Positions 43,467-60,872 of a stretch of 64,000 nucleotides of DNA are shown in pieces. The position numbers and the translations under genes were made by a program. Below the pieces are notes generated by a model. The model searched no databases. It was not told the origin of the DNA and saw only the letters and a program-made list of their open reading frames with translations. Positions within the stretch are counted from its first letter, which is position 1; every line of letters starts with the position of its first letter. The stretch is from Halobacteriales archaeon QH_7_66_36 (GTDB lineage: Archaea > Halobacteriota > Halobacteria > Halobacteriales > Haloarculaceae): NCBI GenBank assembly GCA_003021175.1, contig PXQV01000011.1:62001-126000 (forward strand). Reading direction: 5' to 3'.

Positions 43467-43561
43467 GCCCCGGACCACGATTCGACGCCATTCTTCGACG
43501 ACCGTCTGCGAGGGCCGTCGCATACCCAACGAGTCAAGTCCCCTCAGTGGCAAGGCCGGCC

Positions 43562-43960
43562 ATGCGCATCGAACTCCGCGTCTGCAAACACTGCTACGAG
43601 GGGACACACGGGAATCCACAGAAGACCGCGGTGACGCAGGACATGGTCAACTGCGCCCGGACGGTCCGGGAGTACAAGGACCTCATCGGGCTCGACGGCA
43701 TCTACATCACGCGCGTCGAGGAGGGCGACCCGGGCGGCGCGGAGGCGCTTCCGGTCATCGTCGCCGGCATCGATGGGAAGCAGGTGACGCTGTCGGACAC
43801 GCAACTGGTGATGGAGGACGACGACGGCAACATGCTGGTGTATCCGGAGCCGGAGGACATCCTCAAGGTGCTCACGCGGAACCTCGACCAGATACAGGAG
43901 CAGACGCGACAGGACGTGACGGTCGAACTCTCCTCGGAAGGAGCGGAACTGGTCGGTTAG
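43562..43960 (+). CDS. Hypothetical protein with N-terminal Cys pair
   Basis: A 132-residue protein starting MRIELRVCKHCYEGTHGNPQ. The CKHC pair and His may bind metal. The rest is mixed alpha/beta (LIGLDGIYITRVEEGDPGGA, then TLSDTQLVMEDDDGNMLVY) with a helical C-terminus. It converges on the formate dehydrogenase operon (stops overlap by 4 nt), so it is probably not part of it. Family unknown. Confidence 0.65.
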   Translation: MRIELRVCKHCYEGTHGNPQKTAVTQDMVNCARTVREYKDLIGLDGIYITRVEEGDPGGAEALPVIVAGIDGKQVTLSDTQLVMEDDDGNMLVYPEPEDILKVLTRNLDQIQEQTRQDVTVELSSEGAELVG

Positions 43961-44955
43961 TCGTCCGCAGCGCCGACCTCGCCGCTCTCGCCGCTGCCTT
44001 CCTGTTCGAGTTGGCGCTCCCAGCGGATGCGGAGCACGTTGCCGTACATCGACAGCACCAGACCGACACCGAGCACGAGGATGCCGATGTTGATGCCGAT
44101 GGTCATCAGCAGATTCGTCGGGCCGCCGCCGATGGCCAACTCGCGGGGCACCGGATACCCCTCGTCGAGGATACTGGCCATCAGCACCGAGGCGATGCCG
44201 ATGACGGTCGCGGCGCCGAACAGCGTCGACGCCCACCCCCACGACGGGGAGAGCGTCAGCCGCTCGATGCCGGTCGTCTCGGGCTCGCCGTCGGCGTGGT
44301 ACTCGGGCACCAGCTTTCGCGGGATGTACGCCTTCGTCTCGACCGGGTAGAAGGCGGGATGGAAGCCGTGCTCGAAGATGTGGAACATGACCCCCATCAG
44401 CATGATGACGCCAAGCAGCCCGTGGAAGGTGACGAACGCCGCCGCGGCCGCCTTCGTCTGGAAGAGCGCCGCCACCCCGGTCTTGCTCCAGATGAGCAGC
44501 CCCGAGACGGCCAACAGCGTCAGCTCTGCCGAGAAGATGAACACGACGCCCTTACCGATGTACGACAGCAACGGCACCTCGTCGGCCTTGTAGCCGCCGA
44601 ACTGCCGCGCGTTCGGGTGTCGCTCGTCGGCGCGGCCGAGCATGAACTGGATGTCCTGCACGAACGCGTCGATGTCGTCCTTCCCGGGGATGATCTCGCC
44701 GAAGTTGCTCCGACCGGTCGGCGAGATGACCTGAAGCACGATCCAGAAGATGATAAGCGCGATCAGCCCGACACCGGTGATCCGGTGGACCGCCGAGACG
44801 CCGTTCGGACCGCCCATCAGCTCCATCAGCCACCACAGTTCGTCGTTGAACATGATGGCGTAGCCGCTGAAGAACAGCAGGAACACGTCCAGTCCAAGCA
44901 GTGAGTGGAACAGGGTCGTGACCCGCGTGAACTTGCCGTGGTCGAGATTGCTCAT
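43957..44955 (-). CDS. fdnI: Formate dehydrogenase membrane cytochrome b subunit
   Basis: A 332-residue membrane protein of the FdnI/cytochrome b556 type. It begins with FTRVTTLFHSLLGLDVFLLF and has about six membrane helices. Candidate heme ligands include His17, His in SAVHRITGVG and in ILFHIFEHGFH-type stretches (FHIFEHGFHPAFY), plus FVTFHGLLG. It passes electrons from the extracellular catalytic subunit to the quinone pool. Last gene of the fdh operon; overlaps the small membrane subunit by 4 nt. Confidence 0.88.
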   Translation of the reverse strand: MSNLDHGKFTRVTTLFHSLLGLDVFLLFFSGYAIMFNDELWWLMELMGGPNGVSAVHRITGVGLIALIIFWIVLQVISPTGRSNFGEIIPGKDDIDAFVQDIQFMLGRADERHPNARQFGGYKADEVPLLSYIGKGVVFIFSAELTLLAVSGLLIWSKTGVAALFQTKAAAAAFVTFHGLLGVIMLMGVMFHIFEHGFHPAFYPVETKAYIPRKLVPEYHADGEPETTGIERLTLSPSWGWASTLFGAATVIGIASVLMASILDEGYPVPRELAIGGGPTNLLMTIGINIGILVLGVGLVLSMYGNVLRIRWERQLEQEGSGESGEVGAADD

Positions 44956-45368
44956 CGGTCGTCACCTCCGTCGTCGTCGGTGATCTTCCGCGCGGCGGGT
45001 TCACCGCCGTCGGCCGCGACGGCGTCGGTCACGTCCTCGCCCGGCCGCTGCATCTGGCCGGCCAGTCGGCGGAACGCCGCCCAGTGGAGGAACACCATCA
45101 CGAGGATGAATATCCCCATGATGACGTCCGCCGCGTGGATGAGCGCGATGAGGAAGTCGAGCGCGGGAATCGAGTTGCCCGCGACCCAGTCGGCACCGAT
45201 GCCGCCATCCCCGACGCTCGGATTCACGCGATAGAGCGACTCGTAGAAGACGTTGAACCCCTGTGCCCACCAGACGGAGAACAGGGCGACGACGATGCCA
45301 ACGACGGCACTGACGCCGACGTGCCACCGCTCGTAGCCGGCCGTGTCGGGGAGCTCTTGCTCGCTCAT
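44952..45368 (-). CDS. Small membrane protein in the formate dehydrogenase operon
   Basis: A 138-residue protein with two membrane helices (about residues 18-38 and 74-96) and a charged C-tail. VWWAQGFNVFYESLYRVNPS between the helices may be an outer loop. The ATG overlaps the stop of fdnH and its own stop overlaps fdnI. A conserved accessory or anchoring subunit of the haloarchaeal complex is likely; direct evidence is lacking. Confidence 0.7.
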   Translation of the reverse strand: MSEQELPDTAGYERWHVGVSAVVGIVVALFSVWWAQGFNVFYESLYRVNPSVGDGGIGADWVAGNSIPALDFLIALIHAADVIMGIFILVMVFLHWAAFRRLAGQMQRPGEDVTDAVAADGGEPAARKITDDDGGDDR

Positions 45369-46033
45369 TCGAACTCACCGGCGTTCTCCTCGCCGAAGAT
45401 GATGTTCATCGCTTCGTCGTTGAAGAACGTCCCGCTGCCGCGGTGGTCCAGTTCGTCGGCGATCTCGCCGGGCGTCCCGACGAGGATAGCGTCCGTCGCG
45501 CACTCCTGTGCACACGCCGGGCCCTTGCCGACCTCCTGACGTTCGGTACACATCGTACACTTGTCCATCTTGCCGCCGTTGCCGACGAGACTCGCCATTC
45601 CCTCATCAGAGTCTGGGAACTGCGGGGCCCCGAACGGGCAGGCGGACAGACAGTACTGACACCCGATACACAGGTCGTCGCGCACGTCGACGAAGCCGCT
45701 CTCGTCGGCCTTGATGAGCGAGTCCGTCGGGCACACCGACACACAGGGCGCGTTCTCGCAGTGGTAACACTGCATCGGCACCGCCGTCTCGCCGGGCGAC
45801 TCGCCCTGACTCATCGCCTCCCCGCTCTGCGTGTTGAATCCCGAGGCGGCCTCTTGGCCCTCGAGCATCGTCGAGATACTGATGCGCTGTTCGTCGTGCG
45901 GCACCTCCCACGTCCGCTTGCACGAGACGACGCAACCGCCGCAGTCGATGCAGGCCTCCACGTCCGGGAAGATGCGAGTGCCCTCACCGACGCTCATCAC
46001 GCCGTCGTGCATTTGTTCTTTTCCAGTTGACAT
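45365..46033 (-). CDS. fdnH: Formate dehydrogenase iron-sulfur subunit
   Basis: A 222-residue four-cluster ferredoxin subunit. Cys sets: CIDCGGCVVSCKRTWEVP, CYHCENAPCVSVCP, CIGCQYCLSACPFG and CTMCTERQ with CAQEC. It transfers electrons from the molybdenum subunit to the membrane cytochrome. The start at 46033 lies 11 nt from the end of fdnG. No Tat signal, so it is carried across with the catalytic subunit. Confidence 0.93.
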   Translation of the reverse strand: MSTGKEQMHDGVMSVGEGTRIFPDVEACIDCGGCVVSCKRTWEVPHDEQRISISTMLEGQEAASGFNTQSGEAMSQGESPGETAVPMQCYHCENAPCVSVCPTDSLIKADESGFVDVRDDLCIGCQYCLSACPFGAPQFPDSDEGMASLVGNGGKMDKCTMCTERQEVGKGPACAQECATDAILVGTPGEIADELDHRGSGTFFNDEAMNIIFGEENAGEFE

Positions 46034-46044
46034 ATTATATCACC

Positions 46045-49000
46045 TCACTGCACCGTCGAGTTGCCGCGGACGTCGAAGTCCTTCTGGCCGCCGATGTTGT
46101 TGCGGTCCTGCGGGAACTCGATGTCCGTGTCCATGTTGAGCTCGTTCATCCGTTCTTCCGTCGCTTTCTCGACGGCGACCATCGACACCTTCGTCTCCTG
46201 CATCTGGGTCTCGACATCGTAACCGGTGGACGTGATAGCGTTCACTGAGTCGCCGATGGCGTACGGCACGTGGCCGTCGGGGTACTTGTCCTCCAAGCTC
46301 TCGCCCTTGAACACCCCGCCCCAGTGGTAGGGGAGAAACACCTCTCGGTCGTTCGGCCGGTCCGTCACGCGTGCCTTCACCAGTACCGAGCCGCGGTCGG
46401 TCGAGGAGATGATGATGAGGTCGCCGCCGTCGACATCGAGATCCTCCGCCCGTTTGGGCGTGATCTCGGCGTACATGTGCGGCTGCAGGTCGGCGGTGTG
46501 GATGTTGTTCCGCGTCTCTGCGCCACCACCCTGATGTTCGACCTGCCGGCCGGTGGTCATGATAGTGTCCAGATCCGGCCCCTCGTCGGTGTTGTGGATG
46601 ATGTCCATCGCCCGCTGCTGCTCGACCGCGTTGTTCTGGTCGAGCCGGTAGAAGTTCTTCTGCTGGCCGTTGGCGGGCCACTCTTCCACCAGTTCCGGAC
46701 TCGGACTCTCGATGGGTTCCCGGTGGACGGGCACCGTGTCGAGGAAGTTCCACACGACCGCCCGAGCCCGACCACGACCGGTCGGGGCGTCGGGCTGCCG
46801 GTAGTCGTACTCCTCGAAGGTGTCCATCTGACCGCGGACGCCCGGTGCGATCTTCCGCTCGATGTAGTCGTCGAACGCCGCGCTGCCGGTGTCCGGGTCC
46901 GCGAGCGCCTGTGCAGCGGTGTACACCGACTCGTCGTTGTCCAGCGCGCGCTTCTGTGGGATCGTGAGTTCGTCCGACTGTACGGACTGGTTCGGATCGA
47001 TGAGGCTCTCGGGCGGCGTCGTCTTCCAGCCGGGATACTCCGGAATCCCGTGAATCTGGCCGTCTTCGGCCAGATCCTCGCTGTCTGCCCAGTCGGGCAC
47101 GTACGGTGCGCGGGTGAGGTCTAACGCCTCCTCCTCGCTGTCGTACCTGTCGCCGACGGCGTCGACCGTCTCCTGAAGCGGGTACGGCTTGTCGGAGTTC
47201 CACTGGTCGGGACTGGGTGCCTGCACACCCCACCGGGTCCGGAAGTCCTGGCCCCCGTCGTTGGGGTCCATGTCGTCGTTCCAGATGATGGGTGTGCCGG
47301 GGTGGTCCTCGCCCCAGCAGGGCCACGGGAGCATCCAGTACTCCCCTTCGACGGGCGTCCCCTCGGCGCCTTGGAGGTTCTCCGAGGAGAACGCGTAGTC
47401 GTACTCCATGTGTTGCTGGATGCGCTCGGGGGTCTGCCGGTAGCCGATGGTGTTCGTCCCGAGGTTGAACTCCCGGATGACGTTCTCGTAGGTCGACTTC
47501 CCGTTGTACAGCTCCGAGCCGGCACCCCAGTCGAAGTGCTCGCCGAAGCCCAGCGCACCCGCGAGTTCCTGCATGATCTGCAGGTCGGGCTTGGAGTTGT
47601 GGGCCGGCGGTCGCACGGGTTCCGACCACTGGGTCGCGCGGTGGGTGTTCGTCAGCGAGCGGTAGTGCTCGTACTGACTCGACGCGGGCAGCAGGAGCAC
47701 CGGCGGGCCGTCCTCGTAGTCCGGGAGGACGCTCGCCACGGACGGGAACACGTCGACCACGACCAGCAGGTCGAGGTTCTCCATCCCTTCCTTCATCTGC
47801 TCCATCTCGCTGATTGAGTTCGCGGAGTGACCCCAGAAGACGGCGATCTTCACCTGATCCGGCTGGTAGGCCGGCGTCTCCTGCATCCGGTCTTCCTGAT
47901 CGAGTGCCGCCTCGAACCAGCGGGCCACCGTCAGCCCGTTCTGGAACATCATCGAGTTGGTCGCCGGGTTCTCGGCGCTCGTCTCGTCGGTGCTCGACGG
48001 GAGGTCGTCCGCCGAGATATCCTCGCTCGACTGCTCGACGTACTTTGCCGGCGGCATCAGGTCGAACCTGTCGTACAGGTCTTCGAACGAGGTGGAGCCG
48101 CTCGTGTACGGGTTCTTATCCCAGATTTCCGACCACCACTTCCAGCCGCCGGCAGTCAGTCCGTAGTAGCCGGGCAGGATGTGGCTCGCGACCGCGAGGT
48201 CGGTCGCGCCCTGCACGTTCGCGTGGCCGCGCATGACCTGCAGGCCGCCGCCCGACCGAGCCGCACTGCCGGATGCGAGGCTCGTCGCCGCGTACGAGCG
48301 GATGTTCTGGGTGCCGTTGTTGTGCTGGGTGCCGCCCATCGCCCACTCGATCTGGACGTTCGGGCGGGCCTCGTCGATCATGTCCGCGATGCGCTCGATG
48401 TCTTCCTCGGAGACCCACGTGATCTCCGAGACGGTCTCCGTGTCGTACTGGTCGAGTTCGGCGTCGATGTCCTCCCAGCCCTGCACGCGGTCGGCGAGCA
48501 TGTTCTGCCCGCTCGCGTCCGCGTCGGTGTCGAGCGCGAGCCCGTGTTTGTCGCGGAGCACCTTGATGACGCCCATCATCAGGGCAACGTCCGTACCCGG
48601 CCGGAACCGCATGAACTCGTCGGCGTGAGCCGAGGTCTTCGTGAACCGTGGATCGAGATTGAGTATCTTGCCGCCCCGCTTCTGCCCCTCGAGGATATGC
48701 TGCATCGCGATGGGGTGTGCCTCGGCGGGGTTCTGTCCGACGATGATGTTGAGATCGAAGTTCCGGTAGTCGGTGACCGTGTTGGTCATCGCGCCGTACC
48801 CCCACGTGTTCGCCAAGCCGGCGACCGTGGTGGAGTGGCAGATCCGCGCCTGATGGTCGATGTTGTTCGTCCCCATGAACGCCGCGAGCTTCCGGATCGC
48901 GTACGCCTCCTCGTTAGAGTGGTGCGCACTCCCGAGCAGCATCACGCTCTCGCGGCTGTATTCCTCCCACACCCGTTCGATCTCGCCCGAAAGCAGGTCG

Positions 49001-49407
49001 TAGGCTTGGTCCCACGTCCGCTTCTCCCAGCTTCCGTCCGCGCCACCTTCGCGGATCATCGGGTGTTTCAGTCGTTTCTCGGAGTGTTCGGTCTCGTAGA
49101 TGCCTGCCCCCTTCGAGCAGAGCGACCCATGGTTGATCGGGTGGTCCTGCCACGGCTCCATGCCGACGAACGAGTCACCGTCGCGTTCGCCGCGGAAGCC
49201 ACAGCCGACCGAACAGTAGTTACAGATCGTTTTCGACAGCTCCGTGTCCGTGTCGGTGCCGTCGACCTCTTCGCTCCCCTCTTGGAGCGCTTGGCCCGTC
49301 CCTGCGGCTCCGAGCGCGACTGCGCCCGCGAGCGCGCTCGCCTTCATGAACGAGCGCCTGTCGAGGTCGAGCGACACCGGTTCCGGATCCGGTCGTTGCG
49401 TGCTCAT
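46045..49407 (-). CDS. fdnG: Formate dehydrogenase catalytic subunit, Tat-exported, Cys form
   Basis: A 1120-residue molybdopterin enzyme. The N-terminal Tat signal LDRRSFMKASALAGAVALG is followed by the [4Fe-4S] cysteines ICNYCSVGCGF. The metal-ligand region is RICHSTTVAGLANTWGYG (Cys about residue 190), where bacterial FdnG has selenocysteine, so this is the Cys form. QNPAEAHPIAMQHILEGQ is a further family mark, and the C-terminal dinucleotide-binding domain has FLPYHWGGVFKGESLEDKYP. Oxidises formate outside the cell membrane. The molybdenum/tungsten choice is not visible. Long AT-rich upstream region suggests regulation. Confidence 0.93.
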   Translation of the reverse strand: MSTQRPDPEPVSLDLDRRSFMKASALAGAVALGAAGTGQALQEGSEEVDGTDTDTELSKTICNYCSVGCGFRGERDGDSFVGMEPWQDHPINHGSLCSKGAGIYETEHSEKRLKHPMIREGGADGSWEKRTWDQAYDLLSGEIERVWEEYSRESVMLLGSAHHSNEEAYAIRKLAAFMGTNNIDHQARICHSTTVAGLANTWGYGAMTNTVTDYRNFDLNIIVGQNPAEAHPIAMQHILEGQKRGGKILNLDPRFTKTSAHADEFMRFRPGTDVALMMGVIKVLRDKHGLALDTDADASGQNMLADRVQGWEDIDAELDQYDTETVSEITWVSEEDIERIADMIDEARPNVQIEWAMGGTQHNNGTQNIRSYAATSLASGSAARSGGGLQVMRGHANVQGATDLAVASHILPGYYGLTAGGWKWWSEIWDKNPYTSGSTSFEDLYDRFDLMPPAKYVEQSSEDISADDLPSSTDETSAENPATNSMMFQNGLTVARWFEAALDQEDRMQETPAYQPDQVKIAVFWGHSANSISEMEQMKEGMENLDLLVVVDVFPSVASVLPDYEDGPPVLLLPASSQYEHYRSLTNTHRATQWSEPVRPPAHNSKPDLQIMQELAGALGFGEHFDWGAGSELYNGKSTYENVIREFNLGTNTIGYRQTPERIQQHMEYDYAFSSENLQGAEGTPVEGEYWMLPWPCWGEDHPGTPIIWNDDMDPNDGGQDFRTRWGVQAPSPDQWNSDKPYPLQETVDAVGDRYDSEEEALDLTRAPYVPDWADSEDLAEDGQIHGIPEYPGWKTTPPESLIDPNQSVQSDELTIPQKRALDNDESVYTAAQALADPDTGSAAFDDYIERKIAPGVRGQMDTFEEYDYRQPDAPTGRGRARAVVWNFLDTVPVHREPIESPSPELVEEWPANGQQKNFYRLDQNNAVEQQRAMDIIHNTDEGPDLDTIMTTGRQVEHQGGGAETRNNIHTADLQPHMYAEITPKRAEDLDVDGGDLIIISSTDRGSVLVKARVTDRPNDREVFLPYHWGGVFKGESLEDKYPDGHVPYAIGDSVNAITSTGYDVETQMQETKVSMVAVEKATEERMNELNMDTDIEFPQDRNNIGGQKDFDVRGNSTVQ

Positions 49408-49485
49408 TTTTTCTGGTCCCGTCGTGTCCGGGGTACCGGTCGCCCGGTCCCGTCCCGGTCCTGTCCATCCATGGCTATACCTACG

Positions 49486-49547
49486 GTCGATAAAAATTGG
49501 TGGATAATAAAACGTGGGGGCTCATACCCCGTATTCTGGGGGATATG
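49486..49547 (-). promoter_or_regulatory. Candidate promoter/operator of the formate dehydrogenase operon
   Basis: Minus-strand TTTTATTATCC at about 49512-49503 and ATTTTTATCG at 49497-49488 are candidate TATA boxes, implying a 60-75 nt leader before ATG 49407, unusual in this genome. Upstream of them lies an imperfect inverted repeat, CATACCCC...GGGGGATATG (49523-49547), a possible operator. Confidence 0.4.
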
Positions 49548-49575
49548 TAGTCCCGCAGATATGCTGTCTTGAGTC

Positions 49576-49585
49576 CTAACGTTAG
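49576..49585. promoter_or_regulatory. Perfect 10-bp palindrome upstream of fdnG
   Basis: CTAACGTTAG in the AT-rich part of the 439-nt gap between fdnG and the ModE-like gene. Its position, about 170 nt before the fdnG start, would suit an upstream activator or repressor site. The regulator is not known. Confidence 0.35.
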
Positions 49586-49724
49586 CCGAGACGAACGTAT
49601 CAGCAGATATCTATCCGAAGGTGGTGCTGACCGTTGGAGGGTTCGAGATTCGCCGTCCCACGTCGAGTGTGCGGCGCCACCGAACGCAGTCGATAATACG
49701 GTGAGAGATAGGAAGATCAGACGC

Positions 49725-49814
49725 GAGATTCCCGCAGACCCACCCGCCGCCGTGGACGTACGCGACATCCGGGGGCGACTCGTCGGGGTCGGGGTCGTAG
49801 ATGCGAAGTTCGCC
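49725..49814 (-). pseudogene. Remnant of an alpha/beta-hydrolase (HSL-type esterase)
   Basis: Minus-strand frame reads LRIYDPDPDESPPDVAYVHG followed by GGWVCGNL, the oxyanion-hole HGGGW block of hormone-sensitive-lipase-type esterases with its usual leading strand. Homology ends directly after GNL and the frame becomes unrelated until a stop; nothing of the catalytic Ser region is left. The gap around it holds no other gene. Confidence 0.5.
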
Positions 49815-49846
49815 TGCCCGTGGCCACCTGCGAGCGTGAGCGTTCC

Positions 49847-50542
49847 TCAGTTGAAGACGCCGCGCGTCGCCGTCGCTTTGAACGAGACGGTGACCTCGCG
49901 TCCGACTCCGAGGGCGAGACGCTCCCGACTGTCTTCGGTCACCAGCGCCAACACCGGGTCGTCGGCACCGATGTCGACGGCGACGCGGGCGATACGCTCG
50001 CCGCCTTCGATGTCCCGCACCGTTCCGGCGAACTGGTTCCGCGCGCTCGTGGTGTCCGGCACCGGCGCGTTCGTCGCCTCGTGGAGCGTCACGGCGTCGG
50101 CCGGTATCGTCAACTGGACCGTGCCGTCACCGGCGGACGGGACGAGAGCACGGAGCCGCCCGGCCGACGTTTCGACGGTCGCGAGTTCCCCGTCACGCTC
50201 GACGAGCGTGCCCGAGAGGACGGTTTCGGCGATCTCGGCGACGCCCTCGAAACTCGTCTGCACGCGGTCGAACGCCGCGAGCAACTCGTCGGCGGTTTCG
50301 GTCAGTTCGCTCCCTCCGCCGTCGGTGCCACCCCGCTGTCGGTCGACGAGCGAGCCGAACGCGGCTTCGAGTTCGACGATGCGCTGTTGCGCGTGGCCGT
50401 ACGAGCGGCCCAGAGAGTCGGTCGCCGCGTTCAACGACCCCTCGCCGTCGATTGCACGCAACAGCGTCACGTCCCGGGCGTCGACGGTCACGTCGCCGCT
50501 CCCGATGTAGGCGTCGAACTCCGTCCGAACGTCTATTCCCAT
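49847..50542 (-). CDS. ModE-like molybdate-responsive regulator (wHTH plus TOBE/Mop)
   Basis: A 231-residue protein. N-terminal ModE-type helix-turn-helix: VTLLRAIDGEGSLNAATDSL with LGRSYGHAQQRIVELEAAFG. The C-terminal half holds one or two TOBE/Mop-like domains, recognisable in SARNQFAGTVRDIEGGERIA and GVGREVTVSFKATATRGVF. It should sense molybdate or tungstate and regulate molybdoenzyme genes. It lies between the fdh operon and the HdrA-like gene, so it could control both; ATG 50542 is chosen. Confidence 0.85.
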   Translation of the reverse strand: MGIDVRTEFDAYIGSGDVTVDARDVTLLRAIDGEGSLNAATDSLGRSYGHAQQRIVELEAAFGSLVDRQRGGTDGGGSELTETADELLAAFDRVQTSFEGVAEIAETVLSGTLVERDGELATVETSAGRLRALVPSAGDGTVQLTIPADAVTLHEATNAPVPDTTSARNQFAGTVRDIEGGERIARVAVDIGADDPVLALVTEDSRERLALGVGREVTVSFKATATRGVFN

Positions 50543-50695
50543 GCGTAGCGGTATCCGAACGGCGAACAAAAGCGTTGGTTCACCGCCAATAGAACGCGGA
50601 GGGATCAAGGGGCAAACCCGTCTGACGAAGCATCGAGGGCGAATTCGGGTTCGTGAGGCGGCCAAGCGGGTTGCCCCCCGTCCGCTCCCGCAACG

Positions 50696-50703
50696 CATAA
50701 AAC
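50696..50703 (+). promoter_or_regulatory. TATA box of the HdrA/MvhD-like gene
   Basis: CATAAAAC, 23-28 nt before the paired ATGs at 50723 and 50726; leaderless transcript for the HdrA-like/torD pair. Confidence 0.6.
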
Positions 50704-50722
50704 TGCGCAGGGATTCGCTCGG

Positions 50723-52852
50723 ATGATGAACGTAGGTGCGTTCGTGTGCTCGTGCGGAGGCACGTGCGACATTGACTTAGAGGAGGTCCGAGAGGGCGTC
50801 GAGGGGGTCGACGTCGTCGCCAGCTCGGAGCTGTTGTGTCAGGACGGTCGTCCGGCGATGTCGCAGGTGATCGACGAGTACGACCTCGACCAGCTCATCG
50901 CGACGACGCCGGAGCCGTCGTGTCAGGAACGCATCCGCTCGCTCGCGGACGACCACGGGCTACACCCGGAGGCGACGGCGTTCGTCGACCACCGAGAGAC
51001 GACCGCGTGGGTCCACGACGAGGGCGAAGCGACCGACAAGACTGCGCGCCTGATCAACGCGAAGCGGGCCGGTCTCGCCGAAGAAGCGATCTCGCGAACC
51101 GTCTCGACGGAGGCCGGCAACCGGGTCGCCGTCGTCGGTGACGCCGACGCCGCCCGGTCGCTGTCGGACGAGGCGGACGTGACGCTCATCGCGGACGGCC
51201 GCGAGTTCGCCGACACGGAGGGGCTGGACGACGTGAACGTCGAACGGGGCCACGTCGCCGCCGTCGAGGGCTCGTTCGGCGAGTTCGAGCTGGTGGTTCG
51301 CGCGCAGGTCACCGACGACTGCATCGACTGCATGGAGTGCGTCCGCGAGGGTCCCGACGGGATGGTGACCGAGTTCCCGGTCGACATCCACCCCGAGGCA
51401 CCCGACGGCGACTGGGTTGACGTGTGTCCGACCGACGCTATCGAACTCGACGGCACGACCCGACGACTGGAGTTCGATCAGGTGATCCACCCCGGCGGCA
51501 CGTCGCGAGCGCGGAGCGGCCGCGTCGGGTTCTACACCGGGCCGGTCGACGCGGGGACCGTCGCCGCCGTCGAGTCGCATCTCGGCGGCATCGAGAAGCC
51601 GAAGTTCCTCGATCTGGAGATGGACGTGTGTGCGGCCGGCGAGTCGAGCCAGCAAGGGTGTACCGCCTGCGTCGACGCCTGCCCGCACGAGGCGGTCGAC
51701 CGGCCGGCGGTCGACGAGGTGGCGTTCGACGAGACGGCCTGTCAGAACTGCGGGGCCTGTACGAGCGCCTGTCCGACGGGTGCGGCGAAGCTCCGCGAGC
51801 CGTCCAACGAGCGGATCGCTCGCGAGGTGGAGGCGCTGCTCGAAGCCGACGAGGAGGACGACAGTCTGCTCGGTGCGCGTGACGACGCCGGCATCGAGAC
51901 GCAGGTCGTCGCGTTCGTCTGCTCCGAGCGGGCGAGCGAACGACTGCGCGCGTACGGCCGCCGCGCCGCGCGCCGCGGCGACGTGGAGTATCCGCCGGTG
52001 CTCCCGGTGCAGGTCAACTGTACCGACACCGTCGGCGAGGCACACGCGATGCACGCGCTCGCGGCGGGTGCCGACGGCGTCGCAATCGTCGGCTGTGGCG
52101 GCTCCTGTCTCCACTCCGGCCCGGACCCGAAGGCGGAGCTGGTCGAGCGGCTCAACACGGCGACCAGCGATCTGGGACTCGGCGAGCGCGTCGGCTTCTT
52201 CGCCCCCGAAGCGGGTGACCCGTCGGCCTTCGCCGCGGAACTCTCGGCGTTCGTCGAGGAGACGCTCGACGAGACGTCGGTGCCGGCGGGCAACCACGAG
52301 GCCACGGGCCGCATCGACGACGACCGGCCCAACCCCGACTTCGACAGTCACGGCTGGACGCTGGAAAGCGTCCGCGCGCTGCTCGATCACGTCGACCCGG
52401 CACGGGAGACGATCAGGGGGCTGAAGAACTTCGGCCTGCTGTCGGTGAACGACTCGTGTACGCTCACGCCCACCTGTACGAGCCTCTGTCCGACGGACGC
52501 CATCAAGCGCACGGACGACGGTCGGCTTCAGTTCAATCACGAGCGGTGTGTGAACTGCGAACTCTGCGAGGAGGGGTGTCCCGAATCCGCCATCACGATG
52601 GAGACGGGACTGGACCTCTCGCTGCTGCCGGAGCACAACGACGACGACCCGTGGACCACCGTTCACGAGGACGAGATGCTCGAGTGTATCCGCTGTGGAA
52701 CGCCGTTCACCAGCGCGGCCTCGGCCGCGAAGGTGGAAGCGGAGGTCGGCGACCGCGTGGCCGGCCTCGCGCCGGACAGCGACCACAGCGTCTTCGAGTA
52801 CTGTGGCGACTGTCGCGGACGCCTCCTCTTCGATCAGGGTGACGCGCGATGA
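50723..52852 (+). CDS. HdrA/MvhD-like multi-cluster iron-sulfur protein
   Basis: A 709-residue soluble protein. Order: HdrA-type start VGAFVCSCGGTCDIDLEEV with SSELLCQDG and TPEPSCQERIR; a reduced nucleotide-binding-like region (VAVVGDADAARSLSDEADVT); clusters around CIDCMEC (about 197), ACVDACP (311), CQNCGACTSACP (339); an MvhD/FrhD-like domain (about 395-494: VVAFVCSERASERLRAYGRR, VGCGGSCLHSG); then CTLTPTCTSLCP (578), CVNCELCEEGCP (608) and two CxxC pairs at 654 and 693. HdrA and MvhD move electrons between hydrogenase or formate dehydrogenase and heterodisulfide reductase in methanogens; here, a link to ferredoxin is inferred. Overlaps torD by 4 nt. Confidence 0.8.
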   Translation: MMNVGAFVCSCGGTCDIDLEEVREGVEGVDVVASSELLCQDGRPAMSQVIDEYDLDQLIATTPEPSCQERIRSLADDHGLHPEATAFVDHRETTAWVHDEGEATDKTARLINAKRAGLAEEAISRTVSTEAGNRVAVVGDADAARSLSDEADVTLIADGREFADTEGLDDVNVERGHVAAVEGSFGEFELVVRAQVTDDCIDCMECVREGPDGMVTEFPVDIHPEAPDGDWVDVCPTDAIELDGTTRRLEFDQVIHPGGTSRARSGRVGFYTGPVDAGTVAAVESHLGGIEKPKFLDLEMDVCAAGESSQQGCTACVDACPHEAVDRPAVDEVAFDETACQNCGACTSACPTGAAKLREPSNERIAREVEALLEADEEDDSLLGARDDAGIETQVVAFVCSERASERLRAYGRRAARRGDVEYPPVLPVQVNCTDTVGEAHAMHALAAGADGVAIVGCGGSCLHSGPDPKAELVERLNTATSDLGLGERVGFFAPEAGDPSAFAAELSAFVEETLDETSVPAGNHEATGRIDDDRPNPDFDSHGWTLESVRALLDHVDPARETIRGLKNFGLLSVNDSCTLTPTCTSLCPTDAIKRTDDGRLQFNHERCVNCELCEEGCPESAITMETGLDLSLLPEHNDDDPWTTVHEDEMLECIRCGTPFTSAASAAKVEAEVGDRVAGLAPDSDHSVFEYCGDCRGRLLFDQGDAR

Positions 52853-53475
52853 ACGACGGAGCACTCTACGAGGCGCGACTCGAACTGGTCGACTTCGTCA
52901 TCGAGACGTTCTGGGACACGCCGGAAGAGGCGTTCGTCGAGCGACTGTTGGGCGACGAACTCCAGTTCCCCGACGACTCGGTGAACGAGTCGATGGACGA
53001 GGGGTTCGACCTGCTGCGAGCGTGGCTCGACGAGAACCGCGACCGGAACGCCGTGGCGGTCCACGAGGATCTGCGACGGGAGTACACGGAGCTGTTCGTC
53101 GGGCCGCGACCGCAGGTGTTGCCCCACGAGACGCATTACCGCGACGATACGGAGTTCATCGGTGAGGGGCTGGCCGAGGTCGAGGCGAGTTACGGCGCGG
53201 CCGGCTGGGCCGCCCCCGAGGACTACCCCGAGGAGGACGACTTCATCGCCGTCGAGATGACGTTCCTCCGGTATCTCATCGACCAGCAGCGAAACGGCCA
53301 CGAGGAGGCGTTCGGCTTCGAGCGGGTGTTCATCGACGAGCACCTCTCGCAGTGGGTCGACGACTTCGTCGCGGAGACGCGCGGAGAGACCGACGACGGC
53401 CTGTTCCTCGCCGCGGCGCTCGTCTGTCGGGGCATCGTCCAGTTCGAGGACGAAATCGTCGCGCAGATGGTTTAA
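52849..53475 (+). CDS. TorD-family molybdoenzyme maturation chaperone
   Basis: A 208-residue all-helical protein of the TorD/DmsD family. The conserved DLRREYTELFVGPRPQVLPHE motif (quoted part REYTELFVGP) is followed by YRDDTEFIGEGLAEVEASYG and FIAVEMTFLRYLIDQQ. Such chaperones bind Tat signals and insert the cofactor, here most likely for FdnG. ATG overlaps the HdrA-like stop, indicating coupled translation. Confidence 0.9.
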   Translation: MNDGALYEARLELVDFVIETFWDTPEEAFVERLLGDELQFPDDSVNESMDEGFDLLRAWLDENRDRNAVAVHEDLRREYTELFVGPRPQVLPHETHYRDDTEFIGEGLAEVEASYGAAGWAAPEDYPEEDDFIAVEMTFLRYLIDQQRNGHEEAFGFERVFIDEHLSQWVDDFVAETRGETDDGLFLAAALVCRGIVQFEDEIVAQMV

Positions 53476-53702
53476 TCGGCCGTCGCGACGACGACGGCCC
53501 CGACGACGAGGAGGCCAGCCGCGACGGCGAGCGTCGCCGGGGCCGCGGTCGCGAGCGCCCGTTCGAACAGGAACAGCGACCGCCACGTGCCGACGTACTC
53601 CGCGGCCAGTCCGAGTCCGCCGACGACGGTGAGGAGCAGACAGAGCCCGCCCACGGACAGCGCGACGAGCGCGTCGAGCGGGCGAACGCTGATGTCACGC
53701 AT
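53472..53702 (-). CDS. Small membrane protein, third of an overlapping trio
   Basis: A 76-residue protein with two membrane helices (about residues 11-33 and 49-72), linked by a short loop with EYVGTWRSLFLFERA. Its start overlaps the end of the 98-residue gene upstream, and its stop overlaps the convergent torD stop. No family recognised. Confidence 0.65.
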   Translation of the reverse strand: MRDISVRPLDALVALSVGGLCLLLTVVGGLGLAAEYVGTWRSLFLFERALATAAPATLAVAAGLLVVGAVVVATAD

Positions 53703-53991
53703 CGTCGATCACCCGGCGACCGACGAGCGTGACGGCGAACAGCGGAACCAGCACGGCGAGGAGTCGGCTCACGAACAGTCCCATGTAGCTCACGGTCGAT
53801 TCGAGGTGGATCGCCCAGTGCCAGTTTTGCCCGGGTTGCATCGAGTGTTTCAGCGCCGCGATGACGGCCACCGTCCCGACGACGAGCAGTGACAGCGCCA
53901 GCAGCCCGGCGAGCGCGTACACCAGCGTCTCCGCGTATCTGAGGGCGGTCGCCGCGTCGAAACCGGGGTCGCGGCCGTGTTCTGTCGCCAT
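53695..53991 (-). CDS. Small membrane protein, second of the trio
   Basis: A 98-residue protein with two membrane helices (about 22-45 and 68-90) and a hydrophilic loop KHSMQPGQNWHWAIHLESTV containing His and Trp residues, which could bind a cofactor or quinone; this is only a suggestion. Overlaps both neighbours by 4-8 nt. Confidence 0.68.
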   Translation of the reverse strand: MATEHGRDPGFDAATALRYAETLVYALAGLLALSLLVVGTVAVIAALKHSMQPGQNWHWAIHLESTVSYMGLFVSRLLAVLVPLFAVTLVGRRVIDDA

Positions 53992-54137
53992 CAGCTATCC
54001 ACCCCGAACGACCGGCGTCGGTAAAGGTCGTAGCCCACGAGCACCAGTACGACGAGGCCGACCGCGAGGACGGCGAGCCCTACGTCAGGCGGGAACGGTA
54101 GCGCCGGTGCCGAGCCGGCATGCCCGGGTCCACTCAC
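53991..54137 (-). CDS. Small membrane protein, first of the trio
   Basis: A 48-residue protein from GTG 54137 (VSGPGHAGSAPALPFPPDVG) with one membrane helix at residues about 20-38 and a basic tail LYRRRSFGVDS. The stop overlaps the next ATG (ATGA). No ATG lies in this frame at a suitable position. The existence of three overlapping reading frames of membrane type supports it. Confidence 0.55.
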   Translation of the reverse strand: MSGPGHAGSAPALPFPPDVGLAVLAVGLVVLVLVGYDLYRRRSFGVDS

Positions 54138-54220
54138 GACTCCGTAAACGGCCAGCGGCTTCAAAACGCTTGTGCCCGGCGCGAACAACGCTTTTGTCCG
54201 CCGGCCTCCACATCTTGGTA

Positions 54221-55444
54221 ATGACATCTCGCCGCGGGCTCTTACGCCGGCTCGCCGCGCTGTCGGGGGCGGCCGGGCTGAGTGGCTGTTCTCGGCTGCT
54301 CGCACAGCGGGCGGAGGCACCCACCGCCGACCTGCCGGCGAACCCGCTCGCCGCCGAACTCCCCGTCGCCCAGCACGCGTGGGAAGCGGAGCTCCGAACG
54401 GACGCGAAGGGGAACACGCTCCTCCCGCGTCACTATCGCATCCTGCTGTTGAATCTCGACGCGGAGCCGTCCGAGGAGAGCGCGGCGACCGTCGAGCGGG
54501 CGATGCGCACGCTAGAGCAGGCCTACGAGTTCAGCGCCGACGGCCTGCTCCACATGCTCGGGTGGGGGAGCGCGTACTTCGAGCGACTCGGCGCGCTGAG
54601 TGGCTCGCCGATTCGCCACCCGAAGGTGCTCTCTCGCACCGACGACCCGGACCTGCTGGCGTTCGACGCCGCGCTCGTGCTCGCGAGTCACGTCCCCTCG
54701 CAACTGGTCGCGACCGAACAGGCAATGTTCGGGGATAGAGGGACGCTCGGCGGCGCGGCAGTCGAGGACCGACTCGGCGACGTGTTCAGCCTCGCCGAGC
54801 GCCGGACCGGCTTCCTCGGCGAGGGACTGCCCGCGAAACACGCCGACGCCGAGGGCGTCCCGGCAGACATTCCGGACGATGCGCCGAACTTCACCGGCTT
54901 CGGGACGGGTCGAAAGGGGACGCAGGCGACCGTCGAGCGGGTCACGATAGACGACGGCCCGTTCGCGGGCGGCACGACGATGCATCTCTCGCAGCTCACC
55001 GAGTCGCTCAACTCGTGGTGGGAGATGGCCGAGTCCGAGCAGGTCGAACAGCTGTTCTCACCCGAGTTCTCGCCCGAAGACATCGACATGGACCCGTCGC
55101 TCCCCTTCGCCGACGCCGTCGAGGAACACGCCGCCGAGGAGGGCGTCGTCGGGCACTGGGAGAAGGCGGCCCGGGCGCGCGACGAGGACGGCCAGCCCCG
55201 ACTCCTTCGCCGCGACTTCGACACGGTGGACGGTGGACAGGCCGGCGTGCACTTCCTCTCCTTACAGCGCGAAATCGAGGACTTCGAGCGGGTCCGCGAC
55301 GCGATGAACGGCTGGTGGCTCCGCGACGAGCACGCAGACGTGACTGACCGGTCGAACAACGGAATACTGGAGTTCATCACCGTCGTCTCGCGGGCGAACT
55401 TCTACGTTCCGCCGCGAGACAAGCGGGCGTTCCCGAGCGCCTGA
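54221..55444 (+). CDS. DyP-peroxidase-like Tat-exported protein
   Basis: A 407-residue protein with a twin-arginine lipoprotein-like signal: MTSRRGLLRRLAALSGAAGL with SGC at residues about 21-23. The body resembles the DyP-type peroxidase family: HYRILLLNLDAEPSEESAAT, GLLHMLGWGSAYFERLGAL and GTTMHLSQLTESLNSWWEM. The usual heme motif GXXDG is replaced by TGFGTGRKG, so peroxidase activity is uncertain. Exported, possibly lipid-anchored. Divergent from the trio of small membrane proteins. Confidence 0.75.
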   Translation: MTSRRGLLRRLAALSGAAGLSGCSRLLAQRAEAPTADLPANPLAAELPVAQHAWEAELRTDAKGNTLLPRHYRILLLNLDAEPSEESAATVERAMRTLEQAYEFSADGLLHMLGWGSAYFERLGALSGSPIRHPKVLSRTDDPDLLAFDAALVLASHVPSQLVATEQAMFGDRGTLGGAAVEDRLGDVFSLAERRTGFLGEGLPAKHADAEGVPADIPDDAPNFTGFGTGRKGTQATVERVTIDDGPFAGGTTMHLSQLTESLNSWWEMAESEQVEQLFSPEFSPEDIDMDPSLPFADAVEEHAAEEGVVGHWEKAARARDEDGQPRLLRRDFDTVDGGQAGVHFLSLQREIEDFERVRDAMNGWWLRDEHADVTDRSNNGILEFITVVSRANFYVPPRDKRAFPSA

Positions 55445-55445
55445 G

Positions 55446-55589
55446 CTACTCGTCTTGGATGACGTCGAGGTCGCCGTCGACCTCGGCCTCGTTCACTTCG
55501 TTGGCGTGGACGCCGTGGTCCCATATCTCGGACCCGTCGAACGTGTTCGTGACACCCTTCGGCCGCCATCCGCTATCTTCGTGTGACAT
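55446..55589 (-). CDS. Hypothetical 47-residue protein
   Basis: A short acidic protein reading MSHEDSGWRPKGVTNTFDGS then EIWDHGVHANEVNEAEVDG. Clean start and stop, strong acidic bias and an AGCTTAACA element (about 55619-55612) at promoter distance support a real gene. No family known. Last of the small-gene run following the AOR operon. Confidence 0.6.
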   Translation of the reverse strand: MSHEDSGWRPKGVTNTFDGSEIWDHGVHANEVNEAEVDGDLDVIQDE

Positions 55590-55643
55590 TAGCTGAACCT
55601 TGCTCCGACCCGTGTTAAGCTTTTCCGCACCGACTGAGTCAAC

Positions 55644-55991
55644 TCACTCCGGCCCCGGGGTTCCCGGCGGGCGCTCTTCTTCCGCTGCCTCGTCCAAGAA
55701 GGCGTTCGAGTACAGGTCGACGTGGAGCTTCAGCACCGTCGTCTCGTCGATTTCAGCCCGTTCGGCCTGTCGTTCGAGGAACGCCTCGGTCGCCTCGGTG
55801 GGGTCGTAGACGATCTCGCGGCCCTCAACTTCGAACTCCGTCTCGTGTGCGCCCGCGACGAGATGCTCGATCTCGAGGAGCGACTGCTCCACCTTCGTGG
55901 CGAGCGCGTCGTCGATCTCCTCGAAGCGTGCCTCTGCCCACTTCTCTGCGGCTTCGTACAGTCGGTCACTCACTTCGAATCGGTAGCTCAC
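55644..55991 (-). CDS. Hypothetical acidic helical protein
   Basis: A 115-residue protein starting MSYRFEVSDRLYEAAEKWAE. Mostly helical and acidic with ALATKVEQSLLEIEHLVAGA; the C-terminus ends in a Pro/Gly tail (PPGTPGPE). Its ATG overlaps the stop of the zinc-ribbon gene. Function unknown. Confidence 0.7.
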   Translation of the reverse strand: MSYRFEVSDRLYEAAEKWAEARFEEIDDALATKVEQSLLEIEHLVAGAHETEFEVEGREIVYDPTEATEAFLERQAERAEIDETTVLKLHVDLYSNAFLDEAAEEERPPGTPGPE

Positions 55992-56134
55992 AGCGACACC
56001 CCCTCGTCGGCTTCGAACTCCGGCGTCCAGACGGTCGTCTCCTCACACACCGGGCAGTGTTCGCGGCGCATCCCGCCCTCGAACGCGCTGAGGTCTATCA
56101 TCTGGCCGCACTCCTCACAGCTGTAGTACGTCAT
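55988..56134 (-). CDS. Zinc-ribbon microprotein
   Basis: A 48-residue protein MTYYSCEECGQMIDLSAFEG ending in an acidic tail. Two Cys pairs, CEECG and CPVCEE, make a complete zinc ribbon. It overlaps neighbours by 4 nt on both sides, so it is an integral part of the small-gene run. Possibly a regulator or assembly helper; unproven. Confidence 0.72.
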   Translation of the reverse strand: MTYYSCEECGQMIDLSAFEGGMRREHCPVCEETTVWTPEFEADEGVSL

Positions 56135-56397
56135 TCCGACGGCGGCCACGACTCGGGTGCCGGGTCGGACTCGCTGAGTTCGCTGTACAGCGTCAACAGC
56201 GCGCCGAGGACGACGAGCAGGACGACCAGTCCGGCGATACCGCCAAGCGCGTTCCGGCCGATGAAGTCGCCCGCCCCCGCCGAGAGCCAGTCGAACGATC
56301 CGGCGACGTTGAGCGTCGTCAACAGCAGCCAGACGAAGGCTCCCGTGACGGCGAACGTGAGTATCCGCGAGTTCTCGAGTGCTGTTCGAAGACCCAT
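56131..56397 (-). CDS. Small membrane protein
   Basis: An 88-residue protein with two membrane helices (about residues 11-32 and 50-72) and a polar C-tail SESDPAPESWPPSE. The first gene of a tightly overlapping group of three. No family recognised; probably the membrane anchor for the small soluble products that follow. Confidence 0.65.
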   Translation of the reverse strand: MGLRTALENSRILTFAVTGAFVWLLLTTLNVAGSFDWLSAGAGDFIGRNALGGIAGLVVLLVVLGALLTLYSELSESDPAPESWPPSE

Positions 56398-56464
56398 TGT
56401 GTTTCCCTCGCTTCCCCACTGGATGTCCGCCGTTAAAACTGTACCGTCCGGGAGCGCGCGTCGG

Positions 56465-56641
56465 TCAGACGAGCAACTGTGCGGTCAACGCGAGGATGAA
56501 CAGCAGCACGCCGCCGAGTGCCGACAGTTCGAGCCACCGCGGGCTCGAATCGGCCGACTGCGCGGTCACCGCGAACACCGACCCCGCGATAGCTACCAGT
56601 GCGACGACGACCAGATAAACGCTGTTGAGGACGCCCGCCAT
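56465..56641 (-). CDS. 58-residue membrane protein
   Basis: Reads MAGVLNSVYLVVVALVAIAG, a hydrophilic turn, and a second helix LGGVLLFILALTAQLLV. Two membrane helices, clean start and stop, and a good TATA box 32 nt upstream support it. Family unknown. Follows the AOR pair with its own promoter. Confidence 0.65.
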   Translation of the reverse strand: MAGVLNSVYLVVVALVAIAGSVFAVTAQSADSSPRWLELSALGGVLLFILALTAQLLV

Positions 56642-56669
56642 GTGTGCTCACAGCTACTCAAGCCTCGAC

Positions 56670-56677
56670 GTATAAAG
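56670..56677 (-). promoter_or_regulatory. TATA box of the small-gene run downstream of AOR
   Basis: Minus-strand CTTTATAC, centred about 32 nt before ATG 56641. It sits between the AOR partner gene and the membrane gene and gives the small genes independent expression. Confidence 0.6.
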
Positions 56678-56684
56678 GTTCCCG

Positions 56685-57476
56685 TTACTCAGGGTCGATC
56701 TCGTAGCCCCAATCGGCCTTCTCTGCGGCCTCGGGGAGCGGTCGGAACTCCCAGCCGTCGGGTTCCATCCCGGCTTCGTCCGGGAGGCCGACGAGCACCT
56801 GCCGGTCGGCGTAGAACATCGAGGACGGCCCGACCTCCGCGAGCCGTTCCGTCGGCCGCGTCCCCGACCCGTTGAAGAAATCGAGGTCGATGGTGTGGCG
56901 GCGCTGGAACTTGTTGAGCGCGTGGGAGGGCACGTCGCCCACGATGCCGAGCCAGTCGGTCCACCGCGTGGCGTCCCGACACGCCGCCTGCGGGTCGTCG
57001 AGTGCGCGTGCCCCCCGGTAGGTGAACGCGAGCGTCATGTCGTCCGCGTTGCCGCCGTGCGGCCCGCTGCCGGCAGCGCCGGAGCCGACCGGCCCGGAGA
57101 CGGACTCCTCGTCTCCCGGAACGCCGGGCGTCCCCGCATCCGTGTCTGTACTGCCATCGCTGCTCGGGATGCCGGGCGTCACGTTGCCCGCGCCCTCGGT
57201 GTCGTCGCTCGCCATGCCGCCCCCTGCTGGCACTTCGGTTTCGATACCGGAGCCGGCTCCGCCCTGCTCGGTCGGGATACCGACCGGTTTCCCGTCGGTC
57301 TCGCTCGGCACGCGGGGCGTGCGCTCGCCGAGGTCGTCGCCGGTGAGCGCGTCAGCGTCGTTGGTCGGCTCCTCGTCGGGGTCGCCGTCGCCCTTCCAGA
57401 GCCAGTCGCCGGGGTTCGCCGCCGGCTCGTCGTCGTCCTGTTCCGTCAGGTCGTCGAGGTCGATGCTGTCCGTCAT
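56685..57476 (-). CDS. AOR-linked hypothetical protein with disordered N-terminal half
   Basis: A 263-residue protein. Residues 1-145 are low-complexity, acidic and Gly/Ser/Pro-rich with repeats such as TPGIP, TPGVP. The folded C-terminal part begins MTLAFTYRGARALDDPQAAC and includes LGIVGDVPSHALNKFQRRHT and a Trp/Pro-rich end. Its ATG overlaps the AOR stop by 4 nt (57473-57476). I know no function; tight coupling suggests a partner or electron-carrier-binding subunit of the AOR homolog. Confidence 0.7.
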   Translation of the reverse strand: MTDSIDLDDLTEQDDDEPAANPGDWLWKGDGDPDEEPTNDADALTGDDLGERTPRVPSETDGKPVGIPTEQGGAGSGIETEVPAGGGMASDDTEGAGNVTPGIPSSDGSTDTDAGTPGVPGDEESVSGPVGSGAAGSGPHGGNADDMTLAFTYRGARALDDPQAACRDATRWTDWLGIVGDVPSHALNKFQRRHTIDLDFFNGSGTRPTERLAEVGPSSMFYADRQVLVGLPDEAGMEPDGWEFRPLPEAAEKADWGYEIDPE

Positions 57477-59179: not shown

Positions 59180-59202
59180 TGGTCCGAGGAAGGAGGATCC
59201 CG

Positions 59203-59210
59203 AATATAAG
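59203..59210 (-). promoter_or_regulatory. TATA box of the AOR operon
   Basis: Minus-strand CTTATATT centred 27 nt before ATG 59179; leaderless arrangement. Confidence 0.65.
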
Positions 59211-59230
59211 CGTTTCCGGTGCGGACGGGA

Positions 59231-59347
59231 TAGTGCTCGGATAAGCCCGGATGAGCCGGCGCAACCAGTGTGACCAGCTTGGAAGCCCCCGGCCCCTTCC
59301 AGTCCCGCCCGCCTGTGCTTGGTCAGCCATCGCGTAGCTGAACACTA
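59231..59347 (-). mobile_element. MITE-like repeat element, copy C (about 117 nt)
   Basis: On the minus strand it opens AGTGTTCAGCTACGCG (59346-59331), has core GGGACTGGAAGGGGCCG, and ends near GAGCACTA, an imperfect inverse of the start. GGACGG occurs just outside both ends, a possible short target duplication. Shorter than copies A and B. It lies between divergent AOR and mobA, upstream of the AOR promoter. Confidence 0.55.
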
Positions 59348-59413
59348 TCGGGGACGGAACGCTCGCCCTGCCGACGCGACACCCATATGTCACTCCGACG
59401 GTCAGACGGGAGT

Positions 59414-60028
59414 ATGCGCGCGGGAGCAATCGTCGCCGGCGGGCGGTCGACCCGATTCGGCGACGCCGACAAGGCCGTCGCCTACCTCGCTGGCGTGCCG
59501 ATGGTCCGCCGCGTCGCCGACCGCCTCGCCACGGCCACCGACACCCTCGTCGTCAACTGCCGCCCCGACCAGCGTGACGCCATCGGCGCGGCGCTCGACG
59601 GCTACCCGAACCCCGTCGTCTACGCCGAGGATCCCGAACCGGATCAGGGACCGATGGCCGGCATCCGCACGGCCTGTCGGGGGGTCGCCCGCACCGACGC
59701 CGAGTACGTCTTCGTCGCGGCCTGCGACATGCCGTTTCTCGACCCGGCGCTCGTCGACCGCTGCTTCGAGCGGGCCGCCGGCCGCGACGCTGCCGTCCCG
59801 CGCCCGGACGAGTGGTACGCGACGACCCACGCCGTCTACCGAGCCGAGGCGATGGCCGACGCCTGCGACCGGGCGCTCGCCCGCGGCGACCGGAAGATCG
59901 TCGCGCCGCTCGATGACCTCGACTGGACCGTCGTCGAGCGCGACACGCTGGAAGCCCACGGCTCGCTCGACTCCTTCGAGAGTTTGGACACCAGAGCGGC
60001 ATTCGACGCGGCCGCCGAGCGGTTCTGA
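59414..60028 (+). CDS. mobA: Molybdenum cofactor guanylyltransferase MobA
   Basis: Attaches GMP to molybdopterin, making the bis-MGD cofactor. The 204-residue protein starts MRAGAIVAGGRSTRFGDADK, the nucleotide-binding loop, followed by VYAEDPEPDQGPMAGIRTAC and the metal-binding FVAACDMPFLDPALVD. ATG 59414 is preferred over an ATG at 59387. It serves the formate dehydrogenase, which needs MGD; the neighbouring AOR does not need it. Confidence 0.9.
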   Translation: MRAGAIVAGGRSTRFGDADKAVAYLAGVPMVRRVADRLATATDTLVVNCRPDQRDAIGAALDGYPNPVVYAEDPEPDQGPMAGIRTACRGVARTDAEYVFVAACDMPFLDPALVDRCFERAAGRDAAVPRPDEWYATTHAVYRAEAMADACDRALARGDRKIVAPLDDLDWTVVERDTLEAHGSLDSFESLDTRAAFDAAAERF

Positions 60029-60039
60029 CTGGCGCGACG

Positions 60040-60771: not shown

Positions 60772-60872
60772 ACGTGGCGTCGCTCCCCGGCCGGCAAGAC
60801 GGTTACGACCGCAGGGTGAGCGGTGTCCATGGAAGGGGAATCGATTAGTGACAGCTCCGCAATGTGGGTTCC

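Follow-up and report, generated by a model that had tools for sequence, protein, structure and literature searches.

An uncharacterized HdrA-derived protein accompanies exported formate dehydrogenases in Halobacteria and probably helps to build them

The exported formate dehydrogenase and its neighbors

We analyzed a window of 64,000 nucleotides from the contig PXQV01000011.1 (positions 62,001 to 126,000) of Halobacteriales archaeon QH_7_66_36. The genome is 2.6 Mb in size, is 96.7% complete and falls in the family of Haloarcula; its nearest named record is Halobacteriales archaeon QS_9_67_17. All genes named in the first-pass annotation of this DNA lie where it placed them and are long reading frames backed by family matches. 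Together with their neighbors they are, in window positions:

43547-43960 (+): small CxxC protein, 137 aa; no Pfam match; present at 68-84% identity in most formate dehydrogenase (FDH) loci
43957-44955 (-): FdhC, cytochrome b561-type membrane anchor (PF01292, 73 bits) with several transmembrane-like stretches
44952-45368 (-): FdhS, small membrane protein with two predicted transmembrane stretches; no Pfam or NCBIfam family match; in all type-A loci
45365-46033 (-): FdhB, iron-sulfur subunit; 16 cysteines in four motifs; best NCBIfam family FDH3_beta, below cut-off
46045-49407 (-): FdhA, predicted Tat-exported catalytic subunit, 1120 aa; Cys190-His191 and Arg393 region; Molybdop_Fe4S4, Molybdopterin and Molydop_binding domains
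49847-50542 (-): ModE-like regulator, HTH and one TOBE/Mop domain (PF03459, TIGR00637); probable start near 50542, picked by inspection (longest frame 49847-50698)
50723-52852 (+): HdrL, HdrA/MvhD-like protein, 709 aa, 32 cysteines; assigned from profile matches and alignment to solved structures
52849-53475 (+): TorD/NarJ-type chaperone (PF02613, 94.1 bits against a cut-off of 22.2)
53861-55444 (+): DUF7405/Dyp-peroxidase-related protein (PF24152, 392 bits); true start probably later; neighbor kept in part of the loci
56685-57476 (-): DUF7124 protein (PF23439, 114 bits), overlapping the next gene by 4 nt; seen repeatedly in FDH loci
57473-59179 (-): aldehyde:ferredoxin oxidoreductase-family protein (AOR; PF01314, PF02730); recurrent in FDH loci
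59387-60028 (+): MobA-like molybdenum cofactor guanylyltransferase (PF12804, 116 bits)
60040-60930 (-): YqeC-like protein (TIGR03172, 163.3 bits against a cut-off of 73.05; PF19842); start probably later; co-occurs with FDH

The four fdh genes had been described as one overlapping operon. This holds for FdhB/FdhS and FdhS/FdhC, each pair of which overlaps by 4 nt, but fdhA and fdhB are separated by an 11-nt gap. As the first-pass annotation had noted, hdrL is divergent from the fdh operon and coupled to torD; the two genes share a 4-nt ATGA overlap. In the near-identical metagenome-assembled genome QS_9_67_17 (locus L010, 10001-12063), hdrL is split into two overlapping frames, reflecting a frameshift or an assembly error.

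Several features indicate that the window encodes a complete, Tat-exported, FDH3-like formate dehydrogenase, as predicted from its sequence. FdhA carries a Tat signal with an RRSFMK motif (TIGR01409, 19.4 bits against 16.7; the Pfam TAT_signal score is just under its cut-off). Among solved structures its best relative is the FdhA of 9vap (705.7 bits), to which it aligns at the active-site Cys-His as well as in the Arg region. The curated FDH equivalog cut-offs were not reached (TIGR01591, 412.6 against 666.25; TIGR01553, 319.5 against 814.2), and FdhB scored 128.6 with FDH3_beta, which has a cut-off of 240. Since FdhA falls under the equivalog cut-offs, it belongs to a divergent subfamily.

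Formate is a plausible electron donor to the quinone pool, in line with the formate respiration first proposed. The accompanying claim that this would be unusual for the group did not hold: about a quarter of sampled Halobacteria have such an FDH, and formate-dependent respiration is already known from Halodesulfurarchaeum and the AArc natronoarchaea (PMC5437934, PMC6176080), whose membrane FDHs are also exported and anchored. The window enzyme is of the type found in Haloarcula and many others, unlike the Halodesulfurarchaeum type. Halodesulfurarchaeum-like loci (genomes G001 and G007, of presumed identity) are arranged FdhABC-TorD-HdrL, and their FDH is about 45% and their HdrL about 29% identical to those of the window. 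The AArc strains do not use formate aerobically (PMC6176080). Besides the exported FDH, the window genome has a second PF00384 enzyme, a cytoplasmic FDH whose N-terminus resembles NuoG (G000:C10:307451-309487, locus L001; FdhD is also absent from this genome). Since no other PF00384-type reductase was found in the genome, oxygen is a likely acceptor, with the AArc strains as a caution.

The island had been drawn from 43957 to 53475. The genes are present, but the conserved unit is larger, about 43547-60930, and also includes AOR, MobA and YqeC. Five Haloarcula loci share a single order: the small CxxC protein, FdhCSBA, HdrL-TorD, DUF7405, DUF7124, AOR, MobA and YqeC; much of this order also occurs in other families. 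Among the examined loci, the ModE-like gene was found only in the window, its near relative QS_9_67_17 and one further locus, and is the sole gene of the earlier list outside the usual set. The 137-aa CxxC protein repeatedly lies next to exported FDH or HdrL and can stand at either end of the locus. The overlapping AOR and DUF7124 genes (56685-59179) recur as a pair in several families wherever FDH loci were compared, which hints at a connection with tungsten; AOR is absent near several other FDH loci.

HdrL lacks the flavin domain of HdrA

HdrL, an uncharacterized, deeply conserved accessory protein, consists of an HdrA N-terminal domain, an eroded Rossmann remnant, a ferredoxin, an MvhD/FlpD domain (PF02662, 62.5 bits against a cut-off of 22.3), a second ferredoxin and a C-terminal CxxC...CxxC. 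Phmmer comparison with solved structures aligned HdrL to HdrA at the N-terminal domain and the C-terminal end only. The FAD-binding, thioredoxin reductase-like region of HdrA gave no alignment and corresponds in HdrL to a stub without GxGxxG, and HdrL has no Pfam flavin domain, signal peptide, transmembrane stretch or flavin motif. The original HdrA/MvhD-like label thus fits as regards the N- and C-terminal parts of HdrA, the MvhD domain and the second ferredoxin, but not the HdrA flavin domain. A structure prediction from 8 close sequences was too poor to use (pLDDT 41) and was excluded.

Since the flavin domain, a hallmark of HdrA, is missing, HdrL cannot bifurcate electrons as HdrA does. 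This bears on the earlier proposal of a link between formate oxidation and a cytoplasmic low-potential carrier, in which HdrL would be a true HdrA/MvhD module performing flavin-based bifurcation or confurcation. The HdrA N-terminal domain, C-terminal ferredoxin and MvhD domain that HdrL has in common with methanogen HdrA and HdrA-MvhD are recognizable, as this reading expects. Yet the FAD domain is gone and its GxGxxG eroded, FdhA has a Tat signal and would act outside the cell, and the loci that we examined showed no hdrB, hdrC or mvhAG; HdrL is paired there with exported Mo-enzymes. We consider this reading hardly credible. Loss of the domain removes the bifurcation model, though not the passage of electrons through HdrL. 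That an HdrA descendant has apparently been reused without its flavin cautions against reading electron bifurcation from "HdrA/MvhD-like" annotations.

An alignment of HdrL across archaea and bacteria contained 19 invariant cysteines, in the ferredoxin motifs and the CxxC...CxxC. One ferredoxin motif lacks one cysteine in the main haloarchaeal form. The MvhD cysteines are kept in this form but absent from the bacterial and Halodesulfurarchaeum-like homologs, and part of the N-terminal cysteine set is likewise not common to all homologs. Thus, the MvhD cysteines and some N-terminal cysteines are not needed for whatever role the HdrL proteins have in common.

HdrL accompanies exported molybdenum enzymes and has changed partners

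We determined how exported FDH (E<1e-100) and HdrL (E<1e-15) are distributed across 292 Halobacteria genomes. Both were present in 76 genomes and neither in 212, while one genome had the FDH only and three had HdrL only (Fisher p = 2e-65, a value that ignores shared ancestry). The HdrA-like gene is therefore not widespread without the FDH; a wide occurrence of that kind is what the first-pass annotation had named as refuting its proposal. Presence of the two is patchy within genera, and the sole sampled congener of the window genome has neither. The one FDH-only genome (G129; locus L061, C1:1182000-1200000) encodes exported FDH and TorD with no detectable HdrL and is the only such genome sampled. 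In some genomes (G131, G247 and G263) a single HdrL accompanies a pair of exported FDHs. In most type-A and Halodesulfurarchaeum-like loci, hdrL overlaps or abuts torD, while in type-B loci the two lie 6-8 kb apart.

HdrL also accompanies a second enzyme. An operon (loci L041, L043 and L044) read in two HdrL-only genomes and around a second HdrL copy of genome G029 encodes a Tat-exported Mo-enzyme of 924-934 aa, an iron-sulfur subunit, an NrfD anchor, TorD, HdrL, an ApbC/Mrp-like ATPase and MobA. The best families for this Mo-enzyme are PhsA, DmsA and ArrA, all far under cut-off. In the third HdrL-only genome (Natrialba, loci L042/L009), HdrL is followed by the ATPase, and the stretch contains no such Mo-enzyme. 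The annotated copy from Natronorubrum shares this Mo-enzyme operon and has ars genes and a regulator of the ArsR type close by. The loci with HdrL relatives in this Phs/Arr-like Mo-enzyme operon are L041, L043, L044 and L085 (2213-15588); in one record it stands beside ars genes.

More distant homologs occur outside the archaea. A plasmid search recovered HdrL relatives in 22 proteobacterial records. In the four annotated loci that we opened (plasmids of Bradyrhizobium, Microvirga, Sulfitobacter and Diaphorobacter), the relative belongs to an FDH3 locus that also encodes TorD and DUF3306 and, depending on the locus, DUF3305, MobA, FdhD or ApbC. As in the window, these loci encode FdhA, FDH3-type FdhB, cytochrome gamma, TorD and an HdrL-homologous 4Fe-4S protein, and in Diaphorobacter the HdrL homolog and torD overlap by the same 4 nt. 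They differ from the haloarchaeal loci, which lack FdhD and DUF3305/3306, and their FdhA is shorter than that of the window. The bacterial proteins are about 22-26% identical to HdrL over its length. Across Halobacteria, HdrL is found with exported FDHs and also with one other exported Mo-enzyme, and it has distant homologs in proteobacterial FDH3 loci.

The trees of FdhA and HdrL, in both of which distant rows sit on long branches, disagree. In the FdhA tree, the type-B enzymes (NrfD anchor in locus L060) group with the Halodesulfurarchaeum-like enzymes (cytochrome b anchor) with support of 99/99. In the HdrL tree, the type-B proteins are nested within those of type A (98/95). Type-B HdrL is 60-63% identical to that of the window, while FdhA is only about 41% identical. 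The HdrLs that accompany the second Mo-enzyme group together with support of 100/100, and their clade falls inside the FDH-associated HdrLs (94/95). The conflict between the two trees indicates that HdrL changed partners between FDH types. Since HdrL serves different anchors and probably opposite directions of electron flow, an assembly factor is easier to reconcile with these data than a docked redox partner.

A proposed maturation role, the FdhD gap and YqeC

Because HdrL tracks exported FDH, is coupled to torD and serves several anchors and a second Mo-enzyme, we favor a role in maturation. On balance, these comparisons make it somewhat probable that HdrL is a cytoplasmic, NapF-like factor that acts with TorD on exported Mo/W-bisPGD enzymes. 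FdhA would be folded and receive its iron-sulfur cluster and Mo/W-bisPGD in the cytoplasm, and FdhA and FdhB would be exported jointly by Tat. FdhC, and probably FdhS, would then hold the enzyme at the outer face, with electrons passing from FdhB through heme b to menaquinone. HdrL, derived from HdrA and lacking the flavin domain, would remain in the cytoplasm, where together with the co-translated TorD it may deliver iron-sulfur clusters, or electrons for cofactor insertion, before export. Its action on FdhA would resemble that proposed for NapF on NapA. In vitro, the cluster of Rhodobacter sphaeroides NapA could be reconstituted only with the help of NapF, a cytoplasmic polyferredoxin (PMC10609526). 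Like HdrL, NapF has several [4Fe-4S] motifs and is encoded with an exported Mo-bisPGD enzyme for which it has a proposed maturation role (PMC10609526). HdrL is far larger, is derived from HdrA and has an MvhD domain and the CxxC...CxxC; the proposed likeness is one of function. The literature that we searched contained no experiment or functional study on any HdrL homolog.

Some observations count against maturation. Genome G129 has an exported FDH without HdrL, hdrL and torD are far apart in type-B loci, and the main haloarchaeal form keeps MvhD cysteines for which maturation alone would have no need. Polyferredoxins are also more often electron carriers. HdrL could instead be a cytoplasmic multi-cluster wire that, without bifurcation, connects the membrane FDH or quinone pool with a partner of low potential, for example ferredoxin or the neighboring AOR. 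The retained MvhD cysteines and the recurrence of AOR as a neighbor fit such a carrier, as does the fact that in methanogens MvhD/FlpD domains connect FDH or hydrogenase to HdrA. However, FdhA is Tat-exported, HdrL occurs with both cytochrome b and NrfD anchors and with an exported enzyme that is not an FDH (which also speaks against the HdrA/MvhD coupling first proposed), the bacterial and Halodesulfurarchaeum-like homologs lack the MvhD cysteines, and several FDH loci have no AOR nearby. We regard the carrier as possible but doubtful, and a maturation role for this constant companion of exported FDH as the better reading.

FdhD is a helper of most other formate-using microbes, with known archaeal exceptions. 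We detected FdhD in none of the 292 Halobacteria genomes, and a second model gave no match over cut-off in 18 genomes; FdhE was not found in the 30 genomes searched. This gap is already known, as a 2023 review noted that Halobacteria often encode FDHs but lack fdhD, and that it is not known which proteins insert and sulfurate the cofactor in them (PMC10609526). Could HdrL replace FdhD, by sulfurating or inserting the FDH cofactor? HdrL is FDH-linked and rich in cysteine, and both FdhD and FdhE were not found. However, 138 genomes without exported FDH have cytoplasmic FDHs, and all but two of these also lack HdrL, which disfavors HdrL as a general FdhD substitute. Moreover, FdhD can be encoded beside HdrL in the FDH3 loci of Proteobacteria, and HdrL accompanies the Phs/Arr-like enzyme. 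We therefore judge this replacement very unlikely.

A further candidate for an FdhD substitute, or cofactor factor for FDH, is YqeC, which is present in 201 of the 292 genomes (TIGR03172). With FDH scored as a best TIGR01591 E below about 1e-190 or an exported FDH, 198 genomes had both YqeC and FDH, 17 had FDH only, three had YqeC only and 74 had neither, in counts uncorrected for phylogeny. The distance from YqeC to an FDH gene is no more than a few kb in many genomes. The link is a correlation and may be indirect, by way of MobA, AOR or another Mo/W enzyme. In the 17 FDH genomes without YqeC (G014, G026, G031, G073, G227 and others), the best FDH matches are frames of 757-874 aa, suggesting a YqeC-independent type.

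A more speculative reading is that FDH maturation without FdhD would involve two activities: YqeC, acting without SelD on the cofactors of most FDHs (insertion or sulfuration), and an export-specific loading or reduction step carried out by HdrL and TorD before Tat. HdrL and YqeC are two deletable candidates for haloarchaeal FDH maturation without FdhD.

YqeC is otherwise tied to selenium-dependent molybdenum hydroxylases. The window protein passes the cut-off of this family, but in Halobacteria YqeC tracks FDH. Roles independent of selenium have been suggested (PMC5029168), and in Clostridioides difficile deletion of yqeC alone gave no obvious phenotype (PMC11448449). The literature searched contained no functional work on YqeC from haloarchaea. 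A role as a factor for assimilatory nitrate reductase is disfavored, as 21 of 23 NasA-type genomes without an FDH match over threshold (a hand-compiled list) also lack YqeC. A selenium factor is also unlikely here, as SelD was over cut-off in only three of the 30 genomes searched, where it adjoins a different YqeC copy. These SelD-adjoining copies are 39-47% identical to the YqeC of the window, compared to 53-56% for the FDH-linked copies of Haloarcula.
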